Origin: Sorghum bicolor
Lineage: Eukaryota; Streptophyta; Magnoliopsida; Poales; Poaceae
Assembly: GCF_000003195.3 (NCBI RefSeq)
Contig: NC_012871.2
Coordinates: 48,889,862-48,953,861 of the forward strand
DNA length: 64,000 nucleotides
Direction: 5' to 3'
Shown here: one piece after another, positions 14,911 through 63,192 of the stretch
Layout: each line of letters begins with the position of its first letter
Numbering within the stretch: the first letter of the stretch is position 1
Program-made: the position numbers and the translations under genes
The notes under the pieces: model-generated
What the model saw: only the letters and a program-made list of their open reading frames with translations
Database searches by the model: none
What the model was told of the DNA's origin: nothing

Positions 14911-16389
14911 AACAGGGTTACTCTAGTAATTACATCCTCAAGCATCTCAGGGCAGTGATTGCCTGAGTGTCTAGTATCTCCAGTGTGTTTGTGCTTCTAG
15001 ATCTAGGTTCTTCACTTGGTGGAGTCTGGGAGTTGTAAAACTCCTTCATATTTTGTTTGAAGTATACCTGCTCATAAAGACAAGGCAGAGATCAAGTGCA
15101 TGGGCCCTGTTGGTGGAAAACACCAACAGAACCAAAAGTGTATTTGTTCTTCTCTAACCTTATGCATAGTGAGCAAGACAAAGTTGATGGATAATAAGAT
15201 CATGAGTGTAGCATTTAAAGCATTTGTCAGATCAGATCGCTCAACCTAATGGAAAGATAATCTATCTATATTTATGTTGTTTATATCTTCCAAAGTTTGA
15301 ATGTGCAACATTTTAGCTTATATGATTAGGAGTGTGGAATCACAACGGTGGAAGGACTAAACATGTTGAATCGATTGGGTTGGTTAATCTAGAGTTGTAA
15401 ATCATACATGTTTGTCTCTTTTATTCATGTGAACGCCAGAACCAAGGAGAAGCTTATAAAAGTGATAGTCAAGTACCTTAAGATGTTACCTTACTTGAAG
15501 AGTGATGGTACGGTATCTCCTTGTGGAAGCTTTCCTTTCTTAGCGGTTGTGCATCGTGTTTGTAGCACCCTCCATAGATCATCTCTTGTGAGCTATGCCT
15601 TCCTTGTGTAAATTGTTAAACTTCATGTGCCTCTCTCTTTGTCAAAAATGTAAGTGTATCTCAGGACTTCCCAGGTCGATAGTGAAAGTTTTCCTGCAGG
15701 GGTTAGTCCAACAAAATATCCAATATCTACTATAGCATACTATTGGCTCAAAAATCAACCTAGACACCATGTCTAATTTGATTTAGGAGGGCATTTTAAC
15801 CTAAGCACCATGCTTAATTTAAAACCCCTTGGTAGTAAGATCATCATTCCTAAACTAAGCACCAAGCTTAATTAAGAGATAAATGAAACTACTCCAAACC
15901 TAGACATATACTAAAGCAAATAAATGTGGTATGAGAGCTTTTATAGAGATCTACTCAAGTAAAGATGAAGTAGTGTGATTAGTATTTAACAAATTGAGCA
16001 TGCCTCAAAGGTAGGGACAACCAACATAGCAACATGGCAAAGGATGTTTTTATGTAAAGTACTCGCCCAAGCTTGAATTTTGCAAAATTCAAGTTTGGAT
16101 GAATTTAATTCAATGTTGTATGATGATTGGTTGGACATACCTTGTGCTTGTCATTCATCCGATCTTCTTGCTCCAATCCTGGAAAGGTTAGTGACAAGAA
16201 TACCCGAAGGAATATTTTTACAATTATCCTTATATGCTCAATACACAAGGTAATGTTGCAAATAATTAAAAGTTTATGTTATGGTCTGATCAGTGCTTGT
16301 TTTAGGACACTAAGCTTGTCCTTGGGAAACCATCAATTTATGTCAGTGAAGTGGTTTCCCCTCCAACGCTGACCTATATCAAGATCAAC
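14911..16389 (-). other. Element A noncoding region between ORF1 and ORF2, with hairpins
   Basis: No sense-strand gene is visible. Three 15-bp hairpin motifs lie at 15761-15775, 15802-15816 and 15856-15870. Antisense open frames at 15408-15611 and 16127-16372 have counterparts in B and E, but probably reflect nucleotide similarity only. Confidence 0.55.
15761..15870. repeat. Cluster of three 15-bp hairpin motifs in element A
   Basis: TAGACACCATGTCTA (15761), TAAGCACCATGCTTA (15802) and TAAGCACCAAGCTTA (15856) each pair 5-bp arms around a 5-nt loop. They differ in arm sequence yet keep pairing. Confidence 0.65.
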
Positions 16390-16602
16390 TCAACGAGATC
16401 TGCAAAATTTATTATAAACATATGCATCGACAACCGCCCTTTTAAAGCTTTTATAAATAGAAAGGAAGAGGGGGTTGGAGATCTCGAATGTGGTGATGTT
16501 GGAGAGACCAATGGATTGTGAAGATGTTGCATATGAGCATGGAGTAAATGAAGTGGCTATGAAATAAATTCCATGCTCATTAATGCTTAGAGTGAAATCC
16601 AT
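16390..16602 (-). pseudogene. Element A ORF1 remnant (C-terminal ~50 residues conserved)
   Basis: A 70-codon frame ends TTFEISNPLFLSIYKSFKRA and then VVDAYVYNKFCRSR, matching the C-terminus of ORF1 in J1, B and E. The N-terminal MDNSNS...FAPSETSHRPW part is absent, so A has lost most of ORF1. It may now start at its own ATG at 16602. Function unknown. Confidence 0.55.
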
Positions 16603-16696
16603 GTGGTACGGTGAAAATGATAAGGTGAGTGTGGTAAAAAAAGGAAAAGAAAAAGGATATACGGACGACTTGGTTCGAAACTAGCACAGCTACCGT

Positions 16697-16714
16697 TCCC
16701 CGACAATGGCGCCA
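16697..16714 (-). other. Primer-binding site of element A (tRNA-Asp type)
   Basis: The reverse strand reads TGGCGCCATTGTCGGGGA, eight bases inside the LTR end, matching the complement of the plant tRNA-Asp(GTC) 3' end with two differences. Minus-strand DNA synthesis would start here. Confidence 0.75.
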
Positions 16715-17572
16715 GAAAGCTTGTTGGGTATTTTAAACGCAAACAGAAAAATCCGCAAGCGCACGGATACCGGTGTAGCCTTCACCCGGGAGTATTCCAG
16801 AGTATCGATTTTCCACAGGGAACGTGAGTGTACTAATTAAGATCCAAGATCGCCCAAGGATAACTATATAATTATTTTTGGTGGGAAGAGAGGAAGTTTC
16901 CTGAGAGTTCTCTAGTTGATCTAAGAATCAAGAATTACTTCAAGATTATCTATATCGGGACATCAGAGCACTAACCACAGAAAGAGATGAGAAGGGGGCT
17001 AGGAAGGTCTGACTACGGTCCTACAAACACCGATCCGAACGTGGTGGAATACGTCGACCGTTAGGGCTGTCACTACCCTAGGGCTACCACAACAATCCGT
17101 AGGATTGGGTGCAATTCCAGGTAATCGCAAGACTAAACACCACGTCTAATCTATTAATTACTACTCTAGCGTTATAAAGACTAGAGCACTTGATGCAAGC
17201 GGGAATCCAATAAATAACTTGAATGTAAATAAAAGTAATTAGAGAACTCAGGAATTATGAATTGAAGAACCTGGAGAACGATGAAGAACGAACCAGTTGC
17301 TGCAAAAGTACAATGTTGAGGAAGATCCGACAGATCCGGCTCCTCCTCCGCTCTCCTCTTCTCTCTCCCTATTTTCTAGATTACAACTAGAACTAACTAG
17401 AACTAGAACTAGAGGAACTAGAACTAGAACTAGATGAACTAGAACTAGATCTAGATGAACTAGAGGTAGAACTAGAAGAACTAGAGGGATCCTCTCTACT
17501 TGGATGAAGAATTGAAACCCTAGCTTTGATTCTGTAGAAGAGGTATGATCTCCAGGGCCCAGGGGGGTCTGG

Positions 17573-29499: not shown

Positions 29500-30980
29500 C
29501 CATGTTCTTCTTTGCCTAGCAGTTCGAAGTATGGTGTTGGCAATATCCTGCTCAGTGTGTTTGTGCTCATAGATCCAGGTCCTTCATTTGGTGGAGTCTG
29601 GGAGTTGTAAAACTCCTCCATGTTTTGCTTGAAGTGTACCTGTTCATAGAGACAAGGCAGAGATCAAGTGCATGGGCTCTGTTGGTGGAAAACACCAACA
29701 GAACCAAAAGTGTATTTGTTCTTCTCTAACCTTAAGCATAGTGAGCAAGACAAAGTTGATGGATAATAAGATCATGAGTGTAGTATTTGAAACATTTGTC
29801 AGATCAGATGGCTCAGCCTAATGGAAAGATAATCTATCTATGTTTATGTTTTGTTTATATCTTCCAAATATTGAATGTGCAACATATTAGCTTATATGTT
29901 CAGGAGCGTGGGATCACGAAGGTAGTACTAAGAACAAAGATTAAAGGACTAAACATGTTGAACTAATTGAGTTTTTTAATCTGGAGTTATAAATCATACA
30001 TGTTTGTCTCTTTATTTATGTGAATGCTAGAACCAAGGAGAAGTTTATAAAAGCGATAGTTAAGTACCTTAAGGTGTTACCTTACTTGAAGAGTGACGGT
30101 ACAATATCACCTTGTGGAAGCTTTCCTTTCTTAGCGGTTGTGCATCGTGTTTGTGGCACCCTTCATGAATCATCTCTTATGAGCCACGTCTTTCTTGTGC
30201 ATATTGTTAAACTTCATGTGTCACTTTCATCATCTCTGATGCGAGTTTATCTCAGGACTTCCCAGGTTGATATTGAAAGTTTTCCTACAGGGGTTAGTCC
30301 AACAAAATATCCCATATCTACTATAGCATACTATCGGCTTAAAAATCAACCTAGACACCATGTCTAATTTGATTTAGAAGGGCATTTTAACCTAAGCACC
30401 ATGCTTAATTTAAAATCCCTTGGAAGTAAGATCATCATTCCTAAACTAAGCACCATGGTTAATTAAGAGATAAATGAAACTATTCCAAACCTAGACATAT
30501 ACTAAAGCAAATAATGGTAGCATGAGAGCATTTATAGAGATCTACTTAAGTGGAGATGAAGTAGTGTAATTAGTATTTAACAAATTGAGCATGTCTCAAA
30601 GGTAAGGACAACCAACGTAGCAACATGGCAAAAGATGTTTTTATGTAAAGTACTCTCCCAAGCTTGAATTTTACAAAATTCAAGTTTGGATGAATTTAAT
30701 TCAATGATGTGTGATGGTTGGTTGGACATACCCTGTGCTTGTCATTCATCCGATCTTCTTGCTCCAATCCTGGAAAGGTTAGTGACAAGAATACCCGAAG
30801 GAATATTTCTACAATTATCTTTATATGCTCAATACACAAGGCAATGTTGCAAATAATTAGAAGTTCATGTTATGGTCTGATAAGTGCTTGTTTTAGGACA
30901 CTAAGCTTGTCCTTGGGAAACCATCAAGTTATGTTGGTGAAGTGGTTTCCCCTCCAACACCTACCTATATCAACATCAAC
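29500..30980 (-). other. Element E noncoding region between ORF1 and ORF2, with hairpins
   Basis: Three hairpin motifs at 30352-30366, 30393-30407 and 30447-30461 (the last with one broken pair). Antisense frames 30020-30367 and 30718-31008 are also open in B. No sense gene seen. Confidence 0.55.
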
Positions 30981-32018: not shown

Positions 32019-33255
32019 TGTTGATATTTGGTAACGCAATAAGGAAACGATCCGCAAGCGCACGGATATCGGTGAGCATTTCACCCGGGAGGTTATCCAG
32101 AGTTATCGTATTTATATTTTTACCACTGGGAGAAAGGGTGCATCTGACTAACCAAATCTATTGCTACTATCCCTTTAGGCTACAAAGAATGTCTCTCGAT
32201 GTGAGTGATAAATAGAGAAGACTGCAACCGTAGTCTCCTTCTAACCTTGGTAAGGATGATCTATTGTTCTAATGGGGAGGCTAACGGAATCTAGACACCA
32301 CAAAGGATGTTCAACCCGCACCTATAAACCCTATCCTTCCTGCTAACGAGATGTGATCTGCAAAGGTAGCTCGGAATTGTCACGTTCCTCACTACTACCA
32401 CGGTCCAGCTAGTCAGGGAATATCTATGAGTACCCCAGCCTAAACACCACGTTTACGCCAGCAATGATTACTCTAAACTCTACGCGAAGAGATTAAAGTA
32501 AACTCATAAACCATAAGAACAATAAAACAAGAACTTACTAGAATTTAGAAGTCGAAATACTGAAGAATCCTAGGAGCAAGCTTCGGGTTAGGAGAGCTTG
32601 ATCCCGCAGGTACAAGCTTGGAGTAGACACCGACAGGCCGGGCTTCCTCCAATCTACACCTCCACTCTATCTCTCTCAATCTAGTAGAAACTAGAAGATC
32701 TATTTCTACTTTACATTGGTTGCTAAGCCTAAAAAGAAATATTAATTAGAGAAGAGGTTTTCCTTCGAGGGCACCCCTCAATCTCTATGATAATTTCTTC
32801 ATGTCTTCTCCAGGGGCCAGGGGGTCTCCTTATATAGTCCTCCCCTTCTATGCGTTTTTGGTTGGATAGGCGAGGTGGTACTATGTTATTCTGGATCCAA
32901 TAGGTCGGTGGAGATCTCCCGAGAGAAAGAGTCCTGATTGGGCTCAGCAGGTGGGCGGGCGCCCAAGGAAACTGGGCGGGTGCCCAGGTCCTGGCCCTGT
33001 TTCGCCTCCGCTTCGGTCTCGTGGCTTCTGGAGTCTTCTAGATGGTAGAAAATTGCGCGGTGCGTTGATATCTCTATGTAATCCTGACATGTGGGCCTTT
33101 CTTCCTTATTTCCTGATAACCCCCTGCTGAAATAGACAAACACCAAAACTCATGGAATTCTGTCAGATAAAACCCTAAGTCTAGATGTTGATTTCATTTG
33201 GATCCTTTTCTTTGTTTATTTGATAATTAAATTTGATACTTAAGGACCGTCAACA
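32019..33255 (-). repeat. Element E 5' LTR (1237 bp)
   Basis: Ends TGTTGATATTTGG (32019) and GACCGTCAACA (33255). It carries a TATA box (reverse strand TATATAA, 32830-32836), HSE-like block 33026-33043, paired GC-rich motifs (about 32953-32988) and hairpin 32441-32455. The candidate target copy on the right is GTCAG (33256-33260); the other copy is lost. Confidence 0.9.
33026..33043 (-). promoter_or_regulatory. Heat-shock-element-like block in the E LTR
   Basis: TTCTGGAGTCTTCTAGAT, identical to the copies in A and G although flanking LTR sequence differs. Confidence 0.4.
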
Positions 33256-34376: not shown

Positions 34377-34588
34377 TGTTGACGGTTCTTAAGTATCAAT
34401 TTTAATTATCAAATAAACAAGAGAAAGGACCAATATGCAACCATCACCTAGAATTAGGGTTTGATCTGACAGAATTCCACGAGTTTTGTTGTTTATCTAT
34501 TTCTGCAGGGGGTTATCAGGAAATAAGGAAGAAAGGCCCACATGTCAGGATTACATAGAGACATCAACGCACCGCGCAATTTCACATC

Positions 34589-34606
34589 ATCTAGAAGACT
34601 CCAGAA
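34589..34606 (+). promoter_or_regulatory. Heat-shock-element-like block in the B 5' LTR
   Basis: ATC-TA-GAA-GA-CTC-CA-GAA: two perfect GAA modules alternate with two imperfect TTC modules, about 190 bp upstream of the TATA box. Confidence 0.4.
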
Positions 34607-34795
34607 GCCACGAGACCGAAGCGGAGGCGAAACGGGGCCAGGCCTAGGGCGCCCGCCCTGGTACCCTGGGCGCCCGCCCCCCTGTTGGAGCCAATTCAGG
34701 ACTCCTTCGCTCGGGATATTCCACCGACCTATTGGATCAAGAAAAACATAGTACCACCTCGGCTATTGACCCAAAAACGCATAGAAGGGGAGGAC

Positions 34796-34802
34796 TATAT
34801 AA
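34796..34802 (+). promoter_or_regulatory. TATA box of the B 5' LTR
   Basis: TATATAA followed about 12 bp later by CCCCCCTGGCCCCTGGAG, the conserved start-region block of this family. It would drive element transcription. Confidence 0.55.
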
Positions 34803-35085
34803 GCGAGGCCCCCCTGGCCCCTGGAGAAGACATGAAGAAATTATCATAGAGACTGAGGGGTGCCCTCGAAGGAAAACCTCTTCTCTAATTAATATTTCTT
34901 TTTAGGCTTAGCAATCAATGTAAGGTAGAAATAGATCTTCTAGTTTCTACTAGATTGAGAGAGATAGAGTGGAGGTGTAGAGTGGAGGAAGCCCGGCCTG
35001 TCGGTGTCTACTCCAAGCTTGTACCTGCGGGATCAAGTTCTCCTAACCCGAAGCTGCGTAGAGTTTAGAGTAATCATTGCTGGCG

Positions 35086-35100
35086 TAAACGTGGTGTTTA
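35086..35100. repeat. 15-bp hairpin motif in the B 5' LTR
   Basis: TAAACGTGGTGTTTA: arms TAAAC/GTTTA, loop GTGGT. The equivalent internal motifs use other arms (TAAGC/GCTTA, TAGAC/GTCTA). Confidence 0.65.
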
Positions 35101-35529
35101 GGCTGGGGTACTCATAGATATTCCCTGGCTAGCTGGACCGTGGTAGTAGTGAGGAACGTGACATTTCCGAGCTACCTTTGTAGATCACATCTCGTTAGCA
35201 GGAAGGATAGGGTTTATAGGTGCGGGTCGAACATCCTTTGTGTTGTCTAGATTCCGTTAGCCTCCCCATTAGAACAGTAGATCATCCTTACCAAGGTTAG
35301 AAGGAGACTATGGTTGCAGTCTTCTCTATTTATCACTCACATCGAAAGACATTCTTTGTGCCTAAAGGGATAGTAGCAATGGATTTGGTTAGTCAGATGC
35401 ACCCTTTCTCCCAGTGGTAAAAATATAAATACGATAACTCTGGATAACCTCCCGGGTGAAATGCTCACCGATATCCGTGCGCTTGCGGATCGTTTTCTTA
35501 TTGCGGTACCAAATATCAACAAGCATTTC

Positions 35530-35547
35530 TGGCGCCGTTGCCGGGGA
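35530..35547 (+). other. Primer-binding site of element B (tRNA-Asp)
   Basis: TGGCGCCGTTGCCGGGGA, perfect complement of the plant tRNA-Asp 3' end, eight bases after the LTR. Confidence 0.85.
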
Positions 35548-35640
35548 GAAAGACGGTTTGCTGAGATAACTTTGAGTCTTGCTATTATCTTGTATTATAC
35601 TTTTATACTTTTATTCTTTTATCTTTTTATTTTTATCTTT

Positions 35641-36567
35641 ATGGATAACTCAAATTCCATACCTATAATTAAATTCTTTGCACCTTCGGAGACCAGCCAT
35701 AGACCATGGGAGTCAACACGTCCTACCCCTAATTATGATCTGTGTCCGGAGTTGATTGCAATAGGTCAAAACCAACCCTTTTCTATGGCTGAGGTCCTAT
35801 CTTTTAATCAAAAAGATAATGCACTTTTAGCTACACCTAGGGAATCTTTTAATCTTTCTATAAATTCTGGTTCAGACCTAGCCCTACAAGACCATGTTTT
35901 TCCTAGATATTTTCACATTGGTCTTAATCATATAACCTTTTGTAGAGTTTTTCTTTCTTTATCTATTAGTAAAGGAAGGTATGTCTTCATTCGTAGACAT
36001 CCTTCTTGCACTAGTCTTCATAGAATAATCTTAGAGATAGAGAAGGAATCATCTCCCAAACGAGGAAAGGAAGTTTCAATAGCCGATTTCCAAACATTTC
36101 AATCCCATAATTCGGCTATCCAACCCATCCTTGAGCTTAATAATTTCTACTATGCTTTTTCTCTTGAACCTCCCGATAATCCTATGAATCTCTCTAGACA
36201 TCTCATGCATAAGAAGGAGGATCGAGAAGAGCAACATCAATGGCTAGAGGGCATTAAAAATCCATGTGCTATCACCATTGAATGGATAGATTAAACAAAC
36301 TTGAGAGACAATCCTAGAGGAATTTTAAGCATTCATGAAGAATCATCCTTGGAGTTTGAGAATGAGAGAAACAACAGTGAGCATGGAAGTTATTTCATAA
36401 ATACCTCACCCAGTCCTTGCTCATATAAAACATCTCTCCAATCAATTTGTCTCTCCATCCTTACCACATTTGAGATCTCCAACCCCCTCTTCCTCTTCAT
36501 TTATAAAAACTTTAAAAGGGCGGTTGTCGATGCATATGTCTATAATAAATATTGCAGATCTCGTTGA
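35641..36567 (+). pseudogene. Element B ORF1 (unknown function, one stop codon)
   Basis: Begins MDNSNSIPIIKFFAPSETSH like E and J1 and ends VVDAYVYNKYCRSR. It is collinear with E ORF1 and carries the same ~110-residue internal deletion relative to J1. A single TAA (about 36292-36294, in WID*TNLRDN) replaces the Lys codon of E. Everything after it stays in frame to 36567, so the damage is recent. Confidence 0.55.
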
Positions 36568-38048
36568 GTTGATGTTGATATAGGTAGGTGTTGGAGGGGA
36601 AACCACTTCACCAACATAACTTGATGGTTTCCCAAGGACAAGCTTAGTGTCCTAAAACAAGCACTTATCAGACCATAACATGAACTTCTAATTATTTGCA
36701 ACATTGCCTTGTGTATTGAGCATATAAAGATAATTGTAGAAATATTCCTTCGGGTATTCTTGTCACTAACCTTTCCAGGATTGGAGCAAGAAGATCGGAT
36801 GAATGACAAGCACAGGGTATGTCCAACCAACCATCACACAATATTGAATTAAATTCATCCAAACTTGAATTTTGTAAAATTCAAGCTTGGGGGAGTACTT
36901 TACATAAAAACATCTTTTGCCATGTTGCTACGTTGGTTGTCCTTACCTTTGAGACATGCTCAATTTGTTAAATACTAATTACACTACTTCATCTCCACTT
37001 AAGTAGATCTCTATAAATGCTCTCATGCTACCTTTATTTGCTTTAGTATATGTCTAGGTTTGGAATAGTTTCATTTATCTCTTAATTAAGCATGGTGCTT
37101 AGTTTAGGAATGATGATCTTACTTCCAAGGGGTTTTAAATTAAGCATGGTGCTTAGGTTAAAATGCCCTTCTAAATCAAATTAGACATGGTGTCTAGGTT
37201 GATTTTTAAGCCGATAGTATGCTATAGTAGATATGGGATATTTTGTTGGACTAACCCCTACAGAAAAACTTTCAATATCAACCTGGGAAGTCCTGAGATA
37301 AATTCGCATTGGAGATGAAGAAAGTGACACATGAAGTTTAACAATTTGCACAAGAAAGACGTGGCTCATAAGAGATGATTCATGGAGGGTGCCACAAACA
37401 CGATGCACAACCGCTAAGAAAGGAAAGCTTCCACAAGGTGATACTGTACCGTCACTCTTCAAGTAAGGTAACACCTTAAGGTACTTGACTATCGCTTTTA
37501 TAAGCTTCTCCTTGGTTCTAGCATTCACATAAATAAGGAGACAAACATGTATGATTTATAACTCCAGATTAACCAACTCAATTAATTCAACATGTTTAGT
37601 CCTTTAATATTTGTTCTTAGTACTACCTTCGTGATCCCACGCTCCTAAACATATAAGCTAATATGTTGCACATTCAATATTTGGAAGATATAAACAAAAC
37701 ATAAATATAGATAGACTATCTTTCCATTAGGTTGAGCCATCTGATCTGACAAATGTTTCAAATACTACACTCATGATCTTATTATCCATAAACTTTGTCT
37801 TGCTCACTATGCTTAAGGTTAGAGAAGAACAAATACACTTTTGGTTCTGTTGGTGTTTTCCACCAACAGAGCCCATGCACTTGATCCCTGCCTTGTCTCT
37901 ATGAACAGCTACACTTCAAGCAAAACATGGAGGAGTTTTACAACTCCCAGACTCCACCAAGTGAAGGACCTGGATCTATGAGCACAAATACACTGAGCAG
38001 GATATTGCCAACACCATACTTCGAACTGCTGGGCAAAGAAGAACATGG
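36568..38048 (+). other. Element B noncoding region between ORF1 and ORF2, with hairpins
   Basis: Hairpin motifs TAAGCATGGTGCTTA (37087-37101 and 37141-37155) and TAGACATGGTGTCTA (37182-37196). Antisense frames 36830-36540 and 37528-37181 match those in E. No sense gene seen. Confidence 0.6.
37087..37196. repeat. Cluster of three 15-bp hairpin motifs in element B
   Basis: Two TAAGC-ATGGT-GCTTA and one TAGAC-ATGGT-GTCTA copies, each with five paired arm bases. The loop is constant while the arms change together. Confidence 0.7.
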
Positions 38049-41285: not shown

Positions 41286-42522
41286 TGTTGACGGTTCTTA
41301 AGTATCAATTTTAATTATCAAATAAACAAGAGAAAGGACCAATATGCAACCATCACATAGAATTAGGGTTTGATCTGACAGAATTCCACGAGTTTTGTTG
41401 ATTATCTATTTCTGCAGGGGGTTATCAGGAAATAAGGAAGAAAGGCCCACATGTCAGGATTACATAGAGACATCAACGCACCGCGCAATTTTACATCATC
41501 TAGAAGACTCCAGAAGCCACGAGACCGAAGCGGAGGCGAAACGGGGCCAGGCCCAGGGCGCCCGCCCTGGTACCCTGGGCGCCCGCCCCCCTGTTGGAGC
41601 CAATTCAGGACTCCTTCGCTCGGGATATTCCACCGACCTATTGGATCAAGAAAAACATAGTACCACCTCGGTTATTGACCCAAAAACGCATAGAAGGGGA
41701 GGACTATATAAGCGAGGCCCCCTGGCCCCTGGAGAAGACATGAAGAAATTATCATAGAGACTGAGGGGTGCCCTCGAAGGAAAACCTCTTCTCTAATTAA
41801 TATTTCTTTTTAGGCTTAGCAATCAATGTAAGGTAGAAATAGATCTTCTAGTTTCTACTAGATTGAGAGAGATAGAGTGGAGGTGTAGAGTGGAGGAAGC
41901 CCGGCCTGTCGGTGTCTACTCCAAGCTTGTACCTGCGGGATCAAGTTCTCCTAACCCGAAGCTTGCTCCTAGGATTCTTCAGTAATTCGACTTCTAAATT
42001 CTAGTAAGTTCTTGTTTTATTGTTCTTATGGTTTATGAGTTTACTTTAATCTCTTCGCGTAGAGTTTAGAGTAATCATTGCTGGCGTAAACGTGGTGTTT
42101 AGGCTGGGGTACTCATAGATATTCCCTGACTAGCTGGACCGTGGTAGTAGTGAGGAACGTGACATTTCCGAGCTACCTTTGTAGATCACATCTCGTTACC
42201 AGGAAGGATAGGGTTTATAGGTGCGGGTCGAACATCCTTTGTGTTGTCTAGATTCCGTTAGCCTCCCCATTAGAACAGTAGATCATCCTTACCAAGGTTA
42301 GAAGGAGACTACGGTTGCAGTCTTCTCTATTTAACACTCACATCGAAAGACATTCTTTGTGCCTAAAGGGATAGTAGCAATGGATTTGGTTAGTCAGATG
42401 CACCCTTTCTCCCAGTGGTAAATATATAAATACGATAACTCTGGATAACCTCCCGGGTGAAATGCTCACCGATATCTGTGCGCTTGCGGATCGTTTCCTT
42501 ATTGCGTTACCAAATATCAACA
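41286..42522 (+). repeat. Element B 3' LTR (1237 bp)
   Basis: TGTTGACGGTTCTTAAG ... ATATCAACA, full length. TATA box 41705-41711, HSE-like block 41498-41515, hairpin 42087-42101. Confidence 0.92.
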
Positions 42523-46621: not shown

Positions 46622-47962
46622 TGTTGACACTTGCTAACACCACTTGAATACTAGGTTGTCATCCCCAGCATGGCACTAGAGTGTACTATGGTATTTATAC
46701 GCACACAGATAAATCCGCAAGCGCACGGATACTGTTGTAGCTTTTACCTGGTTAATGGTTTTATCGTATCCACAGGGAAATGGGAGAACTGATCTACGCT
46801 CTAACTTAACCTAGATAGATAGATGGGTGTAAATAGGAAAGATGGTAGAATTGAATAAGAATAATATTTAAGGTAAAATAACAATGGGTGATAATATGGG
46901 AAAAGAGAGTAGAGCAATCTAGTATATGGGCGATGGTAGGAGAATAGAGAGAATAACTATGGTTTCTCTACTTCAAAGGGGTATGTCTATGTCTGGGACA
47001 AACCACGTGATAAGAATACACCACAAAGGATGCTTATCCATAGGCCGATAAACCCTACCCGTCCTGCTAGCAGGAGGTGGACTATAGGGGACCAACGTAA
47101 GTGTCACCTACGTAGCCTACCACACGATCCAGCTAGACAGGGGATATCCACAAGTAATCTAGATCTAAGCACCACGCTTACACCTATACTACAACTCTCA
47201 CCTATAGCGTCCTATAGATTAAAGTACTCAAAAGAGTTGTGAACCAGAACATATATGAATAGTAATTGCATAATGAAATAGAAGTAGATTACCAGAGTCA
47301 TCCCATGAGCAAGCTTGATTAGAGCTTGATCATGGCGAAGTACAACCGGAGAAAGAACCGACAGGCCAGCCTCTCCTCCAATCCTCCCTCGCTCTCCATC
47401 TCGCTACTATCTAAATCTACTCTAGTTTAGAGATGAGAGGAGAGCTCTCATCTCCAAACCCTAGCTTTTGCTCTGTCTATGAATAATGAATAGGGATCAA
47501 AGGGGTGCCTCCTCCAGGGGCCAGGGGGTCTGCTTATATAGTCCTCTCAAGTGAATCTGGGCCGTCGGATCAACCCGACATTGATTGAACGGTTATCCTT
47601 AATCCTTTAGGTTGGTGGAGCATAATCCGCGAGGTTGATCATCATTGGTGGAAAAAATAGGGCAGGCGCCCTAAGGATTAGGGCGGGCGCCCTATCCCTG
47701 AGCCCGCTCGGCTTCCCGTTCGTTCCCGTGGCTTCTGGAGTCTTCTAGATGATAGAAAATTGTGCGGCACGTTAATATCTCTATGTAAACCCGACATGTG
47801 GGCCCTTCCTCCATATTTCCTGATAACCCCCTAAAGAAATAGACAAACACCAAAACTCATGGAATTCTATCAGATAAAACCCTAAGTCTGGATGTTGGTT
47901 GCATTTGGATCTTTTTCTTTGTTTATTTGATAATTAAATTTGGTACTTAAGGACCGTCAACA
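46622..47962 (-). repeat. Solo LTR G1 of the non-autonomous family (1341 bp)
   Basis: Outer ends TGTTGACACTTG on the left and GACCGTCAACA on the right, with perfect CACGT duplications and no internal coding region. Contains hairpin TAAGC-ACCAC-GCTTA (47166-47180), TATA (reverse strand, 47534-47540), GC-rich pair (about 47661-47692) and HSE-like block 47733-47750. The left breakpoint of the 11.6-kb duplication lies inside it, at 46679. Confidence 0.85.
47733..47750 (-). promoter_or_regulatory. Heat-shock-element-like block in G1
   Basis: TTCTGGAGTCTTCTAGAT, unchanged from A and E despite an otherwise diverged LTR. Confidence 0.4.
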
Positions 47963-48854: not shown

Positions 48855-50086
48855 TGTTGACGGTCCTTAAGTACCAAATATAATCATCAAATAAATAAAG
48901 AAAAGGATCCAAATGCAACCAACACCTAGACTTAGGGTTTTATCTGACAGAATTCCATGAGTTTTGGTGTTTGTCTATTTCTGCAGGGGGTTATCAGGAA
49001 ATACGAAAGAAAGGCCCACATGTCAGGATTACATAGAGATATCAACGCACCGCGCAATTTTCTACCATCTAGAAGACTCCAGAAGCCACGGGAAGAAAGC
49101 AGAGGCCAAAAGAGGCCAGGCCCAGGGTGCTCGCCCTCTTTCCCTAGGTGCCCGCCCTGTCCTGGACTCCGTTCGGGACTCTCTTCGCACACGATGTTCC
49201 ACCGACCTAAAGGATCAAGGATAATGTAGTACCACATCGCCTACCGACCCAAAAACGCATAGAGGAGGAGGAATATATAAGGAGACCCCCCTGGCCCCTG
49301 GAGAAGACAAGAAGTTATCATAGAGATTGAGGGGTGCACTCGAAGGAAAACCTCTTCTCTAAATAATATTTCTTTTTAGGCTTAGCATCCAATTTAAAGT
49401 AGAAATAGATCTTCTAGTTTCTACTAGATTGAGAGAGATAGAGTGGAGGTGTAGATCGGAGGAAGGCCGGCCTGTCGGTGTCTACTCCGAGTTGTATCTA
49501 CAGGATCAAGTCTCCTAACCCGAGGCTTGCTTCTAAGATTCTTCAGTAATTCGACTTCTAATTCTAGTAAGTTCTTGTTTTATTGTTCTTTGGTTTATGA
49601 GTTTACTTTAATCCTCTTCCGGTTGAGTATTAGAGTAATCATTGCTAGCGTAAACGTGGTGTTTAGGCTAGGGTACTCATAGATATCCCCTGACTAGCTG
49701 GACCGTGGTAGTAGCGAGGAACGTGACATTTCCGAGTTACCTTTGTATCCCATATCTTGTTAGCAGGACGGGTAGGTTTATAGGTGCGGGTCGAACATCC
49801 TTTGTGTTGTCTAGATTCCGTGAGCCTCCCCAATAGAACAGTAGATCATCCTTACCAAGGTTAGAACGAGACTACGGTTGCAGTCTTCTCTATACATCAC
49901 TCACATCGAGAAACATTCTTTGTAGCCTAAAGGGATAGTAGCAATAGATTTGGTTAGTCAGATGCACCCTTTCTCCCAGTGGTAAAAATATAAATACGAT
50001 AACTCTGGATAACCTCCCGGGTGAAATGCTCACCGATATCCGTGCGCTTGAGGATCATTTCCTTATTGCGTTACCAAATATTAACA
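48855..50086 (+). repeat. Solo LTR I1 of the non-autonomous family (1232 bp)
   Basis: TGTTGACGGTCCTTAAG ... AAATATTAACA with perfect GTGGA duplications and no internal region. HSE-like block 49067-49084, TATA box 49274-49280, hairpin 49651-49665, GC-rich pair partly decayed (about 49120-49160). Confidence 0.9.
49067..49084 (+). promoter_or_regulatory. Heat-shock-element-like block in I1
   Basis: ATCTAGAAGACTCCAGAA, identical to the B copies. Confidence 0.4.
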
Positions 50087-50334: not shown

Positions 50335-51526
50335 TGTTGACGGTCCTTAAGTACCAAATATAATCATTAAATAAATAAAGAAAAGGATCCAAATGTAACC
50401 AACACCTAGACTTAGGGTTTTATCTAACAGAATTCCACGCGTTTTGGTGTTTGTCTATTTCTGCAGGGGGTTATCAGGAAATATGGAGGAAAGGCCCACA
50501 TGTCGGGTTTACATAGAGATATTAACGTGCCACGCAATTTTCTATCATCTAGAAGAGTCCAAAAGCCACGGGAACGAACGGGAGGCCGAGCGGGCCCGAG
50601 GGCAGGGCGCCCGCCCTCCCCCCTTGGGCGCCTGCCCAGGTGTCTCAGCCAATCAGGCTCCGCCTCGCGAATTATGCTCCACCGACCTAAAGGATTAAGG
50701 AAAACCGTGTGATTAAGGTCGGTTTGATCCGACGGCCCATGTTCATTTGGAGGGACTATATAAGCAGGCCCCCTGGCCCCTGGAGGAGGGCAATCCCATT
50801 ATTCATTAGCATATTTTCCAGAGAGGATTCAGAGAGAGAGGTCCCTCTAGGGTTCCAACCTCATAGGGCTTAGCATCCAATGTGAGAGTAGAATTAGTTC
50901 TTCTAGATTGAGAGAGATAGAGTGGAGGTGTAGATCGGAGGAAGCCCGACCTGTCGGTGTCTACTCCGAGGTTGTACCTGCGGGATCAAGTCTCCTAACC
51001 CGAGGCTTGCTCCTAGGATTCTTATTGTTCTTTGGTTTATGAGTTTACTTTAATCTCTTCCGGTTGAGTTTAGAGTAATCATTGCTAGCGTAAACGTGGT
51101 GTTTGGGCTAGGGTACTCATAGATATCCCCTATCTAGCCGGACCGTGGTAGTAGCAAGGAACGTGACATTTCCGTAGCTACCTTTGTTGCCCACATCCCA
51201 TTAGCAGGATCGGTAGGGTTTATAGGTGCGGGTTGAACATCCTTTGTGGTGTCTAGATTCCGTAAGCCTCCCCAATAGAACAGTAGATCATCCTTACCAA
51301 GGTTAGAACGAGAGTGCGGTTGTAGTCTTCTCTATACATCGCTCACATCGAATCACATTGTTTGTAGCCTAAAGGGTAGTAGCAATAGATTTGGTTAGTC
51401 AGATGCACGCTTTCTCCAAGTGGTAAAAATATAAATACGATACTCTGGATAACCTCCCGGGTGAAGTGCTCACCGATATCCGTGCGCTTGCGGATCATTT
51501 CCTGATGGTGTTAACAAATATCAACA
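50335..51526 (+). repeat. Element J1 5' LTR (1192 bp)
   Basis: TGTTGACGGTCCTTAAG ... ATATCAACA. It lacks 41 bp found in J2 (after GGATTCTT at about 51020). TATA box 50757-50763; HSE-like block 50547-50564 (last module AAA); GC-rich pair about 50606-50640; hairpin 51091-51105. Confidence 0.9.
50757..50763 (+). promoter_or_regulatory. TATA box of the J1 LTR
   Basis: TATATAA followed by GCAGGCCCCCTGGCCCCTGGAG-type sequence, the family start region. Confidence 0.5.
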
Positions 51527-51534
51527 AGCATTTC

Positions 51535-51552
51535 TGGCACCGTTGCTGGGGA
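51535..51552 (+). other. Primer-binding site of J1 (tRNA-Asp type)
   Basis: TGGCACCGTTGCTGGGGA, two mismatches from the perfect site in B and E. J2 has one of the two. Confidence 0.75.
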
Positions 51553-51648
51553 GAAAGACGGTTTGCTGAGATAACTTTGAGTCTTGCTATTATCTTGTAT
51601 TATACTTTATACTTTTATTCTTTTATCTTTTTATTTTTTTCCATCTTC

Positions 51649-52899
51649 ATGGATAACTCAAATTCCACACCTATTAGTGAATTTTTTGCACCTTCGGAGA
51701 CCAGCCATAGACCATGGGAGTCAACAAGTCCTTTCTTTTCCCCTAATTATGATCTGTGTCTGGAGTTGATTGCAATAGGTCAAAACCAACCCTTTTCTAT
51801 AGCCGAGGTCCTAGGGAATCAAGAAGATAATGAACTTTTAGCTACACCTAGGGAATCTTTTAATCTTTCTATAAATTCTAGTTTAGACCTAGCCCTACAA
51901 GACCATGTTTTTCCTCGATATTTTCACATTGGTCTTAATCATATAACCTTTGGTAGAGTTTTTCTTTCTTTATCTGTTAGTAAAGCAAGGTATGTCTTCA
52001 TTCGTGGACATCCTTCTTGCACTAGTCTTCATAAAAAATTCCTAGAGATAGAGAAGGAATCATCTCCCAGACGAGGAAAGGAAGTTCCAATAGTCGATTT
52101 CCAAACATTTCAATCCCATGTTTCGGCTATCCAACCCAAACTAGTAGTGCTCCAAAATCATCTAAAGGAAGAAGAAATTCTACCTTTGGAAATTCATTTT
52201 GGGATGAGCTTAAACTTCTTGCTTCATAAGAGACCTTTGAGTGCATATAGTCTGAACCTTCCTAAGAAGGGATCTCTTAGAAAGCATCTCAAATCCAATC
52301 CCTTTGATGGACATCTAGAAAGACTCAAGGATGGCATCTTAAGTGATGCAATAGAAAGAGAGCGAAGCCATTTAGAAGACAATCTCATCTTCTCCCCTTC
52401 TACACCCACTTTTGATGACTCATTCAAACCTATCTTTAAACCCATCCTTGAGCCTAATAATTTCTACTATGTTCTTTCTCTTGAACCTCCCGATGATCCT
52501 ATGAATCTCTCTAGACATCCCATGCATAAGAGTCACCAAGACCATAAGGAGGATCGAGAAGAGCAACATCAATGGCTAGAGGGCAATAAAAATCTATGTG
52601 CTATCACCATTGAATGGATGGATAAAACAAACTTGAGAGACAATCCTAGAGGAATTTTAAGCATTCATGAAGAATCATCCTTGGAGTTTGAGAATGAGAG
52701 AAACAACAGTGAGCATGGAAGTTATTTCATAAATACCTCACCAAGTCCTTGCTCATATAAAACATCTCCCCAGTCAATTGGTCTCTCCAACCTTACCACA
52801 TTTGAGGTCTCCAACCCCCACTTCCTTTCTATTTATAAAAACTTTAAAGTGGTGGTTATCGATGCATATGTCTATAATAAATATTGCAGATATCGTTGA
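51649..52899 (+). CDS. Element J1 ORF1 (416 aa, unknown function), full-length version
   Basis: I do not recognise this protein. The start is the ATG of MDNSNSTPISEFFAPSETSH, shared by all copies; the frame is also open upstream into the LTR, which I treat as untranslated. The longest and only undamaged long copy, it includes a ~110-residue middle segment absent from B and E (LVVLQNHLKEEEILPLEIHF onward, basic and leucine-rich, then SPSTPTFDDSFKPIFKPIL). Conserved N-terminal FHIGLNHITFGRVFLSLS and C-terminal VIDAYVYNKYCRYR. No zinc knuckle, protease or RT motif. Placement between PBS and protease suggests a Gag-like role; this is inference. Confidence 0.6.
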   Translation: MDNSNSTPISEFFAPSETSHRPWESTSPFFSPNYDLCLELIAIGQNQPFSIAEVLGNQEDNELLATPRESFNLSINSSLDLALQDHVFPRYFHIGLNHITFGRVFLSLSVSKARYVFIRGHPSCTSLHKKFLEIEKESSPRRGKEVPIVDFQTFQSHVSAIQPKLVVLQNHLKEEEILPLEIHFGMSLNFLLHKRPLSAYSLNLPKKGSLRKHLKSNPFDGHLERLKDGILSDAIERERSHLEDNLIFSPSTPTFDDSFKPIFKPILEPNNFYYVLSLEPPDDPMNLSRHPMHKSHQDHKEDREEQHQWLEGNKNLCAITIEWMDKTNLRDNPRGILSIHEESSLEFENERNNSEHGSYFINTSPSPCSYKTSPQSIGLSNLTTFEVSNPHFLSIYKNFKVVVIDAYVYNKYCRYR

Positions 52900-53667
52900 G
52901 TCGATCTTGATATAGGCACGCTTAGGTTGGTGTTGGAGGGGAAACCACTTCACCCACATAATTTGATGGTTTCCCAAGGACGAGCTTAGTGTCCTAAAAC
53001 AAGCACTTATCAGATCGTAACATGAACTCTTAATTATTTGCAACATTGCCTTGTATATTGAGCATATAAAGATAATTGTAGAAATATTCCTTCGGGTGTT
53101 CGTGTCACTAACCTTTATAGGATTGGAGCAAGAAGATCCGAGGAATGACAAGTGCAAGGTATGACCAACCAATCATCATGCAACATTAAATTAAATTCAT
53201 CCAATCTTAAATTTTGCAAAATTCAAGCTTGGGGGAAATACCTTACATAAGAACATCCTTTGCCATGTTGCTATGTTGGTTGTCCCTACTTTTGAGGCAT
53301 GCTCAATTTTTCTAAACACTAAACTTATTTTCATTTCCACCTGAGTAGATCTCTATAAATGCTGTCATGCTACCTTTGTCTATTCACAAGCAAGTGTTGG
53401 TTTGGAAGTAGTCGACATACTTCCATTGGCATTTAAATTAAGCGTGGTGCTTAGGTTAAATAGCCTTCCTTAATCTTATTAGACATGGAGTCTAGTTTGG
53501 TTACTAAACTAAAAACTGCTTGAGTAGACATTGGTATATTTTGTCGGACTAACCCCTCCAGGAAAACTTTCAATATCAACCTGGGAAGTCCTGAGATACA
53601 AACTCACATTCGAGACAAAGGAGACACATGAAGTTTAACGATTTGCACAAGGAAGACATAGCTCATT
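52900..53667 (+). other. Element J1 spacer after ORF1, with hairpins
   Basis: Hairpins TAAGC-GTGGT-GCTTA (53439-53453) and TAGAC-ATGGA-GTCTA (53480-53494). No sense gene; an antisense frame (53172-52774) matches those in A, B and E. Ends at K1. Confidence 0.55.
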
Positions 53668-58302: not shown

Positions 58303-59586
58303 GAGTGTACTATGGTATTTATACGCACACAGATAAATCCGCAAGCGCATGGATACTGTTGTAGCTTTTACCTGGTTAATGGTTTTATCGTATCCACAGG
58401 GAAATGGGAGAACTGATCTACGCTCTAACTTAACCTAGATAGATAGATGGGTGTAAATAGGAAAGATGGTAGAATTGAATAAGAATAATATTTAAGGTAA
58501 AATAACAATGGGTGATAATATGGGAAAAGAGAGTAGAGCAATCTAGTATATGGGCGATGGTAGGAGAATAGAGAGAATAACTATGGTTTCTCTACTTCAA
58601 AGGGGTATGTCTATGTCTGGGACAAACCACGTGATAAGAATACACCACAAAGGATGCTTATCCATAGGCCGATAAACCCTACCCGTCCTGCTAGCAGGAG
58701 GTGGACTACAGGGGACCAACGTAAGTGTCACCTACGTAGCCTACCACACGATCCAGCTAGACAGGGGATATCCACAAGTAATCTAGATCTAAGCACCACG
58801 CTTACACCTGTACTACAACTCTCACCTATAGCGTCCTATAGATTAAAGTACTCAAAAGAGTTGTGAACCAGAACATATATGAATAGTAATTGCATAATGA
58901 AATAGAAGTAGATTACCAGAGTCATCCCATGAGCAAGCTTGATTAGAGCTTGATCATGGCGAAGTACAACCGGAGGAAGAACCGACAGGCCAGCCTCTCC
59001 TCCAATCCTCCCTCGCTCTCCATCTCGCTACTATCTAAATCTACTCTAGTTTAGAGATGAGAGGAGAGCTCTCATCTCCAAACCCTAGCTTTTGCTCTGT
59101 CTATGAATAATGAATAGGGATCAAGGGGGTGCCTCCTCTAGGGGCCAGGGGGTCTGCTTATATAGTCCCCTCAAGTGAATCTGGGCCGTCGGATCAACCC
59201 GACATTGATTGAACGGTTATCCATGATCCTTTAGGTTGGTGGAGCATAATCCGCGAGGTTGATCGTCATTGGTGGAAAAAACAGGGCAGGCGCCCTAAGG
59301 AGTAGGGCGGGCGCCCTATCCCTGAGCCCGCTCGGCTTCCCGTTCGTTCCCGTGGCTTCTGGAGTCTTCTAGATGATAGAAAATTATGCGGCACGTTAAT
59401 ATCTCTATGTAAACCCGACATGTGGGCCCTTCCTCCATATTTCCTGATAACCCCCTAAAGAAATAGACAAATACCAAAACTCATGGAATTCTATCAGATA
59501 AAACCCTAAGTCTGGATGTTGGTTGCATTTGGATCTTTTTCTTTGTTTATTTGATAATTAAATTTGGTACTTAAGGACCGTCAACA
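58303..59586 (-). repeat. G2: duplicated copy of solo LTR G1, missing its outer 57 bp
   Basis: 1284 bp identical to G1 apart from scattered substitutions. It lacks the outer end and left target copy because the duplication junction falls inside the LTR. HSE-like block 59357-59374, hairpin 58790-58804, TATA 59158-59164. Confidence 0.9.
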
Positions 59587-60479
59587 CACGTCTTGGCAAA
59601 TTATTTCTCGGTCATCCTCAACCAAGCTTGTCATCAGTGGCTCCTCGGCTTACCTGAAAACTCATTCGACTCATGGGAAGAACTGCGGCAGGCATTCATC
59701 GACAATTTCATCGCCATGTGTGAGCAACCAGGAAACAAGTATGATCTCGAGAGGATAAGGGACCAAAAAAACAAGCCCTTGCGTGATTACATCCGACGCT
59801 TCTCACATATGCGCCTCAAGATCCCAAAGATTTCCCATGACGAGGCTATTTCAGCTTTCATCAAAGGTCTCCGTTTTCATGAAGCTTTGAGAAGCAAGCT
59901 ACTACGCAAGAGGCCGACCACGATCGCCGAACTCCTCGCCACGGCCAAGAATTATGCCGACGCTGACGACGTAGAAAAACTCATCAGAGAAGACGTCCGA
60001 GGAACCCAACAAAACGAGCAAACTCCCCGACGGGACGACAACCGCGTACGTTTCGACAACCGAAACCCTCAGTGTAGCAAGAACCACGACATCCGCGATG
60101 ACTTCAGAGGCAAGCGACCTCGCTACAACGATCATGAGGTGAACACAGTCAAGCGTTCCAATGGATGACAAGACTATTAGGAAGACTACAACAAAACCTT
60201 GAAGGGTCGTGCCAACTTCATCCCAAGTCTAACCATATGATGGAGGAATGTCGTGTCCTCACGAGCATCTACAAGCAGCGGGCCGCTCAAGGAGACGCCA
60301 CCAAGACTACCGGGAAGCACGACAGGCGCAACCAAGACGACGAAGACGACGACCAGGACAGGGACCCACGGCATCAATACGTCAATCCAACTGATGTAGT
60401 CCACACCAAATGGAGGGAAGGTTTCGATTGAGTAAAAGCGGGAGAGGAAACTCCTCAAGAGAGCCTGCCTAAATGTGGA
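59587..60479 (+). pseudogene. Element H Gag core, copy 2 (central frame open)
   Basis: The frame 59593-60168 (191 codons) reads without a break through LANYFSVILNQACHQWLLGL, RDYIRRFSHMRLKIPKI and KLIREDVRGTQQNEQTP. It is followed by a second frame with the CQLHPKSNHMMEEC segment (60165-60431). One extra A relative to copy 1 keeps the frame. It is still only a fragment, cut on both sides by LTRs. Confidence 0.75.
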
Positions 60480-61711
60480 TGTTGACGGTCCTTAAGTACC
60501 AAATATAATCATCAAATAAATAAAGAAAAGGATCCAAATGCAACCAACACCTAGACTTAGGGTTTTATCTGACAGAATTCCATGAGTTTTGGTGTTTGTC
60601 TATTTCTGCAGGGGGTTATCAGGAAATACGAAAGAAAGGCCCACATGTCAGGATTACATAGAGATATCAACGCACCGCGCAATTTTCTACCATCTAGAAG
60701 ACTCCAGAAGCCACGGGAAGAAAGCAGAGGCCAAAAGAGGCCAGGCCCAGGGTGCTCGCCCTCTTTCCCTAGGTGCCCGCCCTATCCTGGACTCCGTTCG
60801 GGACTCTCTTCGCACACGATGTTCCACCGACCTAAAGGATCAAGGATAACGTAGTACCACATCGCCTACCGACCCAAAAACGCATAGAGGAGGAGGAATA
60901 TATAAGGAGACCCCCCTGGCCCCTGGAGAAGACAAGAAGTTATCATAGAGATTGAGTGGTGCACTCGAAGGAAAACCTCTTCTCTAAATAATATTTCTTT
61001 TTAGGCTTAGCATCCAATTTAAAGTAGAAATAGATCTTCTAGTTTCTACTAGATTGAGAGAGATAGAGTGGAGGTGTAGATCGGAGGAAGGCCGGCCTGT
61101 CGGTGTCTACTCCGAGTTGTATCTACAGGATCAAGTCTCCTAACCCGAGGCTTGCTTCTAAGATTCTTCAGTAATTCGACTTTTAATTCTAGTAAGTTCT
61201 TGTTTTATTGTTCTTTGGTTTATGAGTTTACTTTAATCCTCTTCCGGTTGAGTATTAGAGTAATCATTGCTAGCGTAAACGTGGTGTTTAGGCTAGGGTA
61301 CTCATAGATATCCCCTGACTAGCTGGACCGTGGTAGTAGCGAGGAACGTGACATTTCCGAGTTACCTTTGTATCCCATATCTTGTTAGCAGGACGGGTAG
61401 GTTTATAGGTGCGGGTCGAACATCCTTTGTGTTGTCTAGATTCCGTGAGCCTCCCCAATAGAACAGTAGATCATCCTTACCAAGGTTAGAACGAGACTAC
61501 GGTTGCAGTCTTCTCTATACATCACTCACATCGAGAAACATTCTTTGTAGCCTAAAGGGATAGTAGCAATAGATTTGGTTAGTCAGATGCACCCTTTCTC
61601 CCAGTGGTAAAAATATAAATACGATAACTCTGGATAACCTCCCGGGTGAAATGCTCACCGATATCCGTGCGCTTGAGGATCATTTCCTTATTGCGTTACC
61701 AAATATTAACA
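60480..61711 (+). repeat. I2: duplicated copy of solo LTR I1 (1232 bp)
   Basis: Same length and ends as I1, with GTGGA at 60475-60479 and 61712-61716. HSE-like block 60692-60709, hairpin 61276-61290. Confidence 0.9.
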
Positions 61712-61959
61712 GTGGATAGCTCTGACGAATTGCTCATCAACCCAAAGTTCCCTCCCTGGTCTCACCGAGAGATATCCTTCAGTAGACAAGACCAATGGGC
61801 TGTCATCCCAGAACCGGGACGTTTCCCATTAATCCTGGACCCATGCATCAACAGCGTCAGATTCGAGCGCGACCTCGTGGACGGTGGCAGCTCCATCGAC
61901 ATCCTATTCTGCAACAGCTTGCCTTCTCTTAAGCTAACCCCGGCACAACTAAAACCATA
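61712..61959 (+). pseudogene. Element H protease-domain fragment, copy 2
   Basis: As at 50087-50334, with the same PGRFPLILDP and DGGSSIDILF motifs; one Ser-to-Arg difference (FSSQDQ versus FSRQDQ). Confidence 0.7.
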
Positions 61960-63192
61960 TGTTGACGGTCCTTAAGTACCAAATATAATCATTAAATAAA
62001 TAAAGAAAAGGATCCAAATGTAACCAACACCTAGACTTAGGGTTTTATCTAACAGAATTCCACGCGTTTTGGTGTTTGTCTATTTCTGCAGGGGGTTATC
62101 AGGAAATATGGAGGAAAGGCCCACATGTCGGGTTTACATAGAGATATTAACGTGCCACGCAATTTTCTATCATCTAGAAGAGTCCAGAAGCCACGGGAAC
62201 GAACGGGAGGCCGAGCGGGCCCGAGGGCAGGGCGCCCGCCCTCCCCCCTTGGGCGCCTGCCCAGGTGTCTCACCCAATAAGGCTCCGCCTCGCGAATTAT
62301 GCTCCACCGACCTAAAGGATTAAGGAAAACCGTGTGATTAAGGTCGGTTTGATCCGACGGCCCATGTTCATTTGGAGGGACTATATAAGCAGGCCCCCTG
62401 GCCCCTGGAGGAGGGCAATCCCATTATTCATTAGCATATTTTCCAGAGAGGATTCAGAGAGAGAGGTCCCTCTAGGGTTCCAACCTCATAGGGCTTAGCA
62501 TCCAATATGAGAGTAGAATTAGTTCTTCTAGATTAAGAGAGATAGAGTGGAGGTGTAGATCGGAGGAAGCCCGACCTGTCGGTGTCTACTCTGAGGTTGT
62601 ACCTGTGGGATCAAGTCTCCTAACCCGAGGCTTGCTCCTAGGATTCTTTAGTATTTCGACTTCTAAATTCTAGTAAGTTCTTTGTTCTTATTGTTCTTTG
62701 GTTTATGAGTTTACTTTAATCTCTTCCGGTTGAGTTTAGAGTAATCATTGCTAGCGTAAACGTGGTGTTTGGGCTAGGGTACTCATAGATATCCCCTATC
62801 TAGCCGGACCGTGGTAGTAGCAAGGAACGTGACATTTCCGTAGCTACCTTTGTTGCCCACATCCCATTAGCAGGATCGGTAGGGTTTATAGGTGCGGGTT
62901 GAACATCCTTTGTGGTGTCTAGATTCCGTAAGCCTCCCCAATAGAACAGTAGATCATCCTTACCAAGGTTAGAACGAGAGTGCGGTTGTAGTCTTCTCTA
63001 TACATCGCTCACATCGAATCACATTGTTTGTAGCCTAAAGGGTAGTAGCAATAGATTTGGTTAGTCAGATGCACGCTTTCTCCAAGTGGTAAAAATATAA
63101 ATACGATACTCTGGATAACCTCCCGGGTGAAGTGCTCACCGATATCCGTGCGCTTGTGGATCATTTCCTGATGGTGTTAACAAATATCAACA
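61960..63192 (+). repeat. Element J2 5' LTR (1233 bp)
   Basis: Retains the 41-bp stretch (about 62648-62690) that J1 lacks, so J1 suffered the deletion. HSE-like block 62172-62189 with both GAA modules perfect, TATA 62382-62388, hairpin 62757-62771 (last base G). Confidence 0.9.

Follow-up and report, generated by a model that had tools for sequence, protein, structure and literature searches.

Introduction

Why does one short palindrome recur, with both of its arms changing together, in the long terminal repeats (LTRs) and the internal spacers of plant retrotransposons, and what could it be kept for? We followed this question in a 64-kb window of Sorghum bicolor DNA (the window being the whole analysed stretch of 64,000 nucleotides), which is composed of nested LTR retrotransposons on both strands, namely the elements A (+), B (-), C (-) and E (+) and the solo LTRs S and D. 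A first-pass annotation of this DNA had listed copies of the palindrome, assigned them to one retrotransposon family and suggested selection for pairing, either as an RNA hairpin or as a palindromic protein-binding site. The observation was borne out and proved to be understated: the motif forms the tip of a hairpin approximately 43 nucleotides (nt) long, which very probably is selected at the level of RNA.

Inventory and anatomy of the hairpin

All 20 positions of the original list carry the motif as described, and two further copies had been overlooked, at 15856 (with a TTGGT loop) and 51091. The window contains 16 perfect 5-bp arms around an NTGGT loop, whereas 30 first-order Markov simulations gave 0.67 on average and at most 3. 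From the 15 distinct window hairpins we built a covariance model, which, run with the scan filters off, returned 22 copies with 30.1-52.3 bits (E<=6.9e-5), the 15 training rows matching by construction; the next best match reached 14.3 bits (E=1.2). Each of the 11 LTR copies holds one hairpin (11 U3 repeats, 11 LTR hairpins), and the other 11 are found in the four spacers that follow a gag-like open reading frame (ORF), as sets of 3, 3, 3 and 2, which confirms the claimed presence in all intact LTRs and the claimed two or three copies per spacer. All 22 copies are in sense orientation relative to their own element.

In element A (+), the model placed the LTR hairpins at 35072..35114 (5' LTR, 43.5 bits) and 42073..42115 (3' LTR) and the spacer hairpins 1 to 3 at 37073..37115 (52.3 bits), 37132..37164 (38 bits) and 37168..37210 (49.2 bits). 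Element B (-) carries its LTR hairpin at 32427..32469 and its spacer hairpins 1 to 3 at 30433..30475 (with one C.C mismatch), 30384..30416 and 30338..30380. The LTR hairpins of element C (-) lie at 17120..17162 (5' LTR, with a G.U in the arm) and 10673..10715 (3' LTR), followed in the same numbering of spacer hairpins by 15842..15884 (with the TTGGT loop), 15788..15830 and 15750..15784. Solo LTR D (-) and its second copy contribute 47152..47194 and 58776..58818, solo LTR S (+) and its second copy 49637..49679 and 61262..61304. For element E (+), the hairpins are located at 51077..51119 in the 5' LTR (with a U.G in the arm), at 62743..62785 in the second copy of E and, as spacer hairpins 2 and 3, at 53425..53467 and 53469..53508 (30.1 bits). 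Spacer hairpin 1 of this element is deleted and replaced at 53404-53424 by GGAAGTA-GTCGACA-TACTTCC, as if the base stem had been retained. Four copies had been recorded with one broken pair; 30447 is truly broken (C.C), whereas on the sense strand 10687, 17134 and 62757 form G.U wobbles.

Below the 5-bp arm, the hairpin has a conserved step in which Watson-Crick pairs are rare, and then further pairs. Its apical consensus UARRC-RUGGU-GYYUA is followed by G30, which like the UGG loop hardly varies. At the step below the arm (columns 14/30), 10 of the 15 window hairpins have U.G and 5 have G.G, with G30 invariant in this set; outward of it follow about 5 pairs, often another mismatch and then more pairs. 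In the outer arms the sequences diverge while their complementarity persists. A larger set of 69 distinct 43-mers, taken from window and genome with the bait included, has the loops ATGGT (32), GTGGT (27) and others (10), keeps G30 in 67 sequences and shows T (46), G (18), A (3) or C (2) in column 14, which makes a C-G pair possible in two of them. Among the hairpins listed, most ATGGT loops belong to spacers and most GTGGT loops to leaders, for which the avoidance of an upstream AUG would be our guess. Spacer hairpins 2 and 3 resemble tandem duplicates. Across six long stretches covering leader, LTR and spacer sequence, all nine hairpins (9/9) were retained in the minimum-energy fold.

Genome-wide counts for two arm variants in the Sorghum bicolor assembly of 709,120,108 bases gave 7137 exact copies of TAAGCRTGGTGCTTA (reversed-pattern control 0) and 3666 of TAAACRTGGTGTTTA (control 11). 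None of the 4227 Rfam families matched the window at the gathering score. Viral contigs were searched for relatives by pattern and protein scans, which yielded no plant element, and the 58 stretches with a 16-mer in prokaryotic contigs represent no enrichment given our own chance estimate of a few hundred. These 58 stretches and two viral matches were reused as negative control (60 chance core copies).

Selection on base pairing

The suggested selection for pairing was supported by flank permutation, by the chance-copy control, by tree-aware nulls and at orthologous LTR sites. In the outer flanks, 79 Watson-Crick and 25 G.U pairs fill 104 of 135 cells, compared to a permuted mean of about 79 (Watson-Crick plus G.U), and 0/5000 permutations reached the observed value. 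The 60 chance core copies pair at 2.5 of 7 outer positions and the 15 window hairpins at 5.6 of 7 (Mann-Whitney p=1.8e-5 for eight representative hairpins). When the substitutions of the window set were re-thrown on the tree, the observed covariation of 0.372 compared with 0.097+-0.031 in the null and was reached in 0/1000 runs, whether all pairs, the inner arms or the outer arms were scored. The paired fraction alone was reached in 1/1000 runs overall and in 1/1000 for the outer arms.

With the 69 sequences, the helix sum G was 394.9 vs 4.2+-36.6 in the null (maximum 124; 0/300), and among 780 column pairs the best three all belong to the helix, namely 18/26, 12/32 and 9/35, with blind E values of 0.05, 0.25 and 0.48. 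The covariation test with many copies and the comparison of the motif with chance, both proposed by the first-pass annotation, were passed at the level of the helix, as covariation beyond phylogeny is expected of a base-paired RNA element; a blind pair-by-pair scan was only borderline. Two of five alignment measures did not beat the shuffles: the number of pairs changed on both sides was not above shuffles (130/500 for 15 rows, 377/500 for 38 distinct rows), and the same is true for further pair types (447/500 and 479/500, respectively).

Since the alignment of 69 sequences mixes paralogous sites, we regard the partner-swap test restricted to LTRs as the cleanest one. In this test, the rows of which were hand-picked by the author from the list of genomic hairpins with the LTR context of new rows checked afterwards, ten LTR variants (one sequence each) have ten different middle helices, which are 90% paired vs 60% when swapped (0/5000); the apical helix is paired to 100% vs 92% (6/5000) and the lower helix to 78% vs 53% (1/5000). 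After reduction to seven LTR groups, for which all 5040 permutations were evaluated, the middle helix is paired to 91% vs 63-69% when swapped, and 2 arrangements reach the observed value, the unswapped one included; the lower helix is paired to 80% (32 reach) and the apical helix to 100% (96 reach). The seven-group result holds whichever of three related variants represents its group. The LTR context was established by homology from LTR base 1 for L093:2647 and by homology across the hairpin for L095:4546 and L095:3545; for L093:3987, L073:526 and L109:1040 it comes from nearby LTR landmarks or homology beside the hairpin only. Region L093 contains adjacent related LTR copies (2464-3358 and 3803-4656, 73% identical), in which the outer arms of the hairpin differ and both pair. 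Another interpretation of L093, as an LTR copy plus a spacer copy with similar flanks, was rejected in favour of two related LTR copies (73-77% identical).

Position in the LTR and the level of action

When six LTRs were aligned, their hairpins all began at the same column. Among four diverged LTRs, the identity of the 15-column core is 0.87 vs 0.46 and 0.55 in the 100-column flanks, and of the 973 windows between the estimated transcription start and the end of the LTR, only 13 attain this conservation, located at the hairpin and at one place near the LTR end. The TATA box precedes the hairpin by approximately 335-385 nt in the LTRs A3, B, D and E (with the strings used, no TATA box was located in S and C), so that the hairpin should be transcribed.

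Among 53 unique non-bait sequences (from 147 matches, 7 of which were dropped for length and 35 as bait), a hand tally of distinct one-sided events in the inner arms gave 10 G.U, 2 A.C and 1 C.C; a sign test on the 10 of 12 G.U vs A.C changes results in about 0.02 (one-sided), whereby the search model behind the tally slightly favours G.U. Because of the transcribed position after the TATA box, the orientation and the G.U excess in one-sided changes, an RNA hairpin is favoured over a DNA palindrome, and the complementarity of the outer arms without conserved sequence speaks for it as well. Of the two forms that had originally been left side by side, the RNA hairpin is thus the favoured one.

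The two LTRs of element A differ next to the hairpin: 93 bases of the 3' LTR (41964-42056), T-rich and immediately 5' of the hairpin, are absent from the 5' LTR at 35055-35056. Judged from its sequence, this stretch looks like a plant polyadenylation region, which would put the hairpin at the start of U5. The difference is not taken for an intron, as by our reading GT-AG ends are missing.

The carrier elements and their proteins

The LTRs read are about 1.2-1.3 kb long, their first bases are TGTTGACGG and their last bases TATCAACA or close to it. Element A (34377-42522, +) was delimited by its LTR pair and primer-binding site. Its 5' LTR (34377..35521, +) starts with TGTTGAC, ends with TATCAACA and has a TATA box near 34795; its 3' LTR (41286..42522, +) was identified by BLAST and the LTR ends. 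The primer-binding site at 35530..35547 (+) has the sequence TGGCGCCGTTGCCGGGGA, which presumably matches the 3' end of tRNA-Asp. Paired TG...CA LTRs and a primer-binding site after the 5' LTR are what is expected of a Ty3/gypsy LTR retrotransposon. The LTR of element B is located at 32019..33255 (-), those of element C (-) near 16.7-18.0 kb (5') and 10.7-11.6 kb (3'), and that of element E at 50335-51526 (+), with a second E copy from 61960. Solo LTR D (about 46625-47962, -) lies between ACGTG/ACGTG repeats and solo LTR S (48855-50086, +) between GTGGA/GTGGA repeats. The assignment of the hairpin to one family did not hold, as several LTR lineages carry it, some of which (e.g. A and D) can be aligned by BLAST only in the promoter part.

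Two rearrangements affect these elements. The 3' LTR of element C is interrupted by a later insertion (5012-10661), and its two parts overlap by 5 bases when compared with the 5' LTR, like a target-site duplication. Furthermore, a block of ~5.7 kb with LTRs D and S and element E is duplicated (46679-52330 and 58303-64000, 98.5% identity, 11.6 kb apart).

The gag-like ORF1 of element A (35461..36294, +) gave no PF03732 match, and its ORF2 (37965..38819, +), which by our own reading of a DTGS motif is protease-like, gave no Pfam match. ORF1 of element E (51427..52899, +) is gag-like as well and comprises 490 amino acids from stop to stop. In the Pfam search with eight window ORFs, the sole match was RVT_1, located in a different element. 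The E-copy ORF1 has 16 relatives found, of which 3 (P0013-P0015) contain PF03732 (Retrotrans_gag); the relatedness to this gag family is hence given through these relatives and not through the ORF1s of the window. ORF1 of A and E (35461-36294 and 51466-52899) retains gag portions (in E also the C-terminal end) without a match to the capsid-type domain that is still present in P0013-P0015.

Within the window, the search for reverse transcriptase (RT) gave one strong match, the query itself (23925-24734), which belongs to another element. No RT was detected in 22 genomic regions with a chromovirus RT query, a search without same-lineage positive control that a distant RT could escape, and within this limit the carriers lack the RT of their own that a Ty3/gypsy element would have. 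In the genomic regions L073 and L086, D-lineage LTR hairpins flank a gag that matches P0015 over its full length including the capsid region, with spacer hairpins in between, and L084 and L085 combine the same P0015-type gag with a spacer hairpin and a downstream LTR hairpin (the pieces compared in these four regions are 77-95% identical).

Proposed function and alternative explanations

Elements without RT form much of some grass genomes. A compact, covarying hairpin at two defined places is a specific candidate for the signal by which the machinery of a partner would choose them. We propose that the hairpin in the sense RNA would be the docking site for one RNA-binding protein, which reads the UGG loop together with the G.G/U.G step, and that it would be used in trans for selecting full-length RNA for packaging or for its assembly with Gag. 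The spacer copies might add valency, and the elements without detected RT would be recognised by machinery encoded elsewhere. Foreign recognition would be needed because no RT was found in hairpin-carrying elements, and a shared cis signal is something that such parasites would have to keep. Packaging in trans is our first choice because RT-less elements need foreign machinery and retroviral Gag reads an exposed G in a loop; such reading is described for the retroviral nucleocapsid (NC) in GGAG and GGUG hairpin loops (PMC7599994). In barley, BARE2 produces no Gag of its own and uses the particles of BARE1 for its packaging; the packaging signals are said to be retained in it (PMC3735527).

Taken as a whole, a protein-docking hairpin that most likely acts in packaging or Gag assembly in trans is the best explanation, to which we give slightly less than even confidence; packaging as such is a tentative assignment. 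More doubtful is a reading by which the RT-less retrotransposons of sorghum would form a large guild, with >10,000 exact hairpin sites in the genome, united by one RNA code, i.e. the UGG loop and G.G/U.G step in at least seven LTR groups and in the post-gag spacer, and by a common protein acting in trans. The covariance model could be used to list members of such a guild in other grasses.

It must be mentioned that several observations weigh against this interpretation. The 15 window hairpins show a G.U:A.C ratio of 37:13, which does not exceed that of the null (57.5:21). For the inner arms taken by themselves, the paired fraction remains within the null (89/1000 reach it; the maximum of the 69-sequence null exceeds the observed value), and the best blind pairwise covariation was only E=0.20 with 46 sequences and E=0.05 with 69. 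Over the whole LTR, 12.8% of the 15-column windows are equally conserved, mostly in the promoter half. Several copies sit in truncated elements and solo LTRs, which report past selection only. Finally, a CCHC zinc knuckle was matched in 0 of the 136 related proteins returned, many of which are fragments, so that the zinc-knuckle mode of NC binding is unsupported for the carrier Gag.

The main rival, close behind packaging and taken alone rather unlikely, is that the same RNA hairpin acts post-transcriptionally in another way, i.e. in the nuclear export of unspliced RNA or in the translation of the downstream protease-like ORF. For export, the repeated hairpins of retroviral transport elements are a parallel. 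Copies are situated 5' of each ORF, those of the leader preceding gag and those of the spacer preceding the protease-like one (also in L075 and L077), and since the ORFs are separate, the second one needs splicing, re-initiation or internal entry; in element A it opens as a separate ORF about 0.8 kb 3' of the spacer hairpins. However, the coding match begins at varying distances from the hairpin (about 0.4 to 0.9 kb), and element E retains two spacer hairpins though no protease-like ORF follows.

It is improbable that the site acts as double-stranded DNA, namely as a palindrome to which a dimeric host transcription factor binds. This would account for the 5-bp palindromic arms with fixed spacing and for copies in LTRs and internal regions, as in the repeated motifs of Sireviruses, for which the same mode of action was proposed (PMC2829016). 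Nevertheless, the site lies 3' of the TATA box at the distance given above in the four LTRs located, and a symmetric dimer site needs no matched purines on both arms, yet columns 18/26 of the 15 window hairpins are A-U in 7, G-C in 7 and other in 1. Moreover, the loop is conserved and asymmetric, the outer arms retain pairing without sequence, and the excess of G.U in one-sided changes (absent from the window set alone) is not expected of a DNA site.

It is quite improbable that the structure serves reverse transcription or silencing, as a pause or strand-transfer site or as a hairpin that feeds or evades small-RNA production. Its R-U5 position near the first-copied region would fit, and for maize genes and elements a correlation between secondary structure and small RNAs is reported (PMC10760457), but the spacer copies are distant from the strong-stop region, the stems are short and interrupted, unlike Dicer substrates, and the fixed loop argues for a loop reader. 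That the hairpin has no present function, as an old palindrome duplicated and inherited with the elements, is largely refuted and hardly credible: the likeness of spacer hairpins 2 and 3 to tandem duplicates and the many copies from few ancestors would agree with it, but neutral decay gives no compensatory changes (0/1000 and 0/300 in the tree-aware nulls) and the hairpin is an island of conservation in the transcribed part of the LTR.

Comparison with known systems

The exact forms of the motif were absent from the full-text literature searched, and none was found by title in literature listings. Among functional counterparts, the BARE1/BARE2 pair of barley resembles the proposed docking hairpin in that a Gag-less element is packaged by a partner and is said to keep its cis signals (PMC3735527). 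These are Ty1/copia elements, however, and the likeness is one of their described behaviour. Ty3 of yeast shares the Ty3/gypsy type, a structured 5' RNA and short cis signals; its dimerisation is reported to rely on a 6-nt palindrome that caps a short hairpin (PMC11381356), whereas the sorghum RUGGU loop is not self-complementary.

The packaging hairpins of retroviruses (SL2/SL3 of human immunodeficiency virus 1, psi of murine leukemia virus and Rous sarcoma virus) are similar in the exposed loop G, the leader position and the presence of more than one per genome. The sorghum candidate differs in that no CCHC knuckle was matched in the related proteins found, and by its extra copies in the post-gag spacer; the hairpin with exposed loop G in a transcribed leader, which characterises psi, is present by prediction only.

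The repeated motifs of Sireviruses (Ty1/copia) are likewise short palindromes in the LTR and the internal linker of plant LTR retrotransposons. According to their description, CGG-CCG occurs in the motifs of 12 of 13 elements, with 8-32 motifs per element; most of the motifs occupy the upper (5') half of the LTR, where they are drawn 5' of the TATA box, and they were read as transcription-factor sites (PMC2829016). In contrast, the sorghum hairpin is present once per LTR, after the TATA box, in elements of Ty3/gypsy type; its outer stems covary and its UGG loop is almost constant. With its core UARRC/GYYUA it shows neither CGG-CCG nor many copies in the upper LTR half. By layout, the Sirevirus motifs are nevertheless the nearest described thing among those we met.

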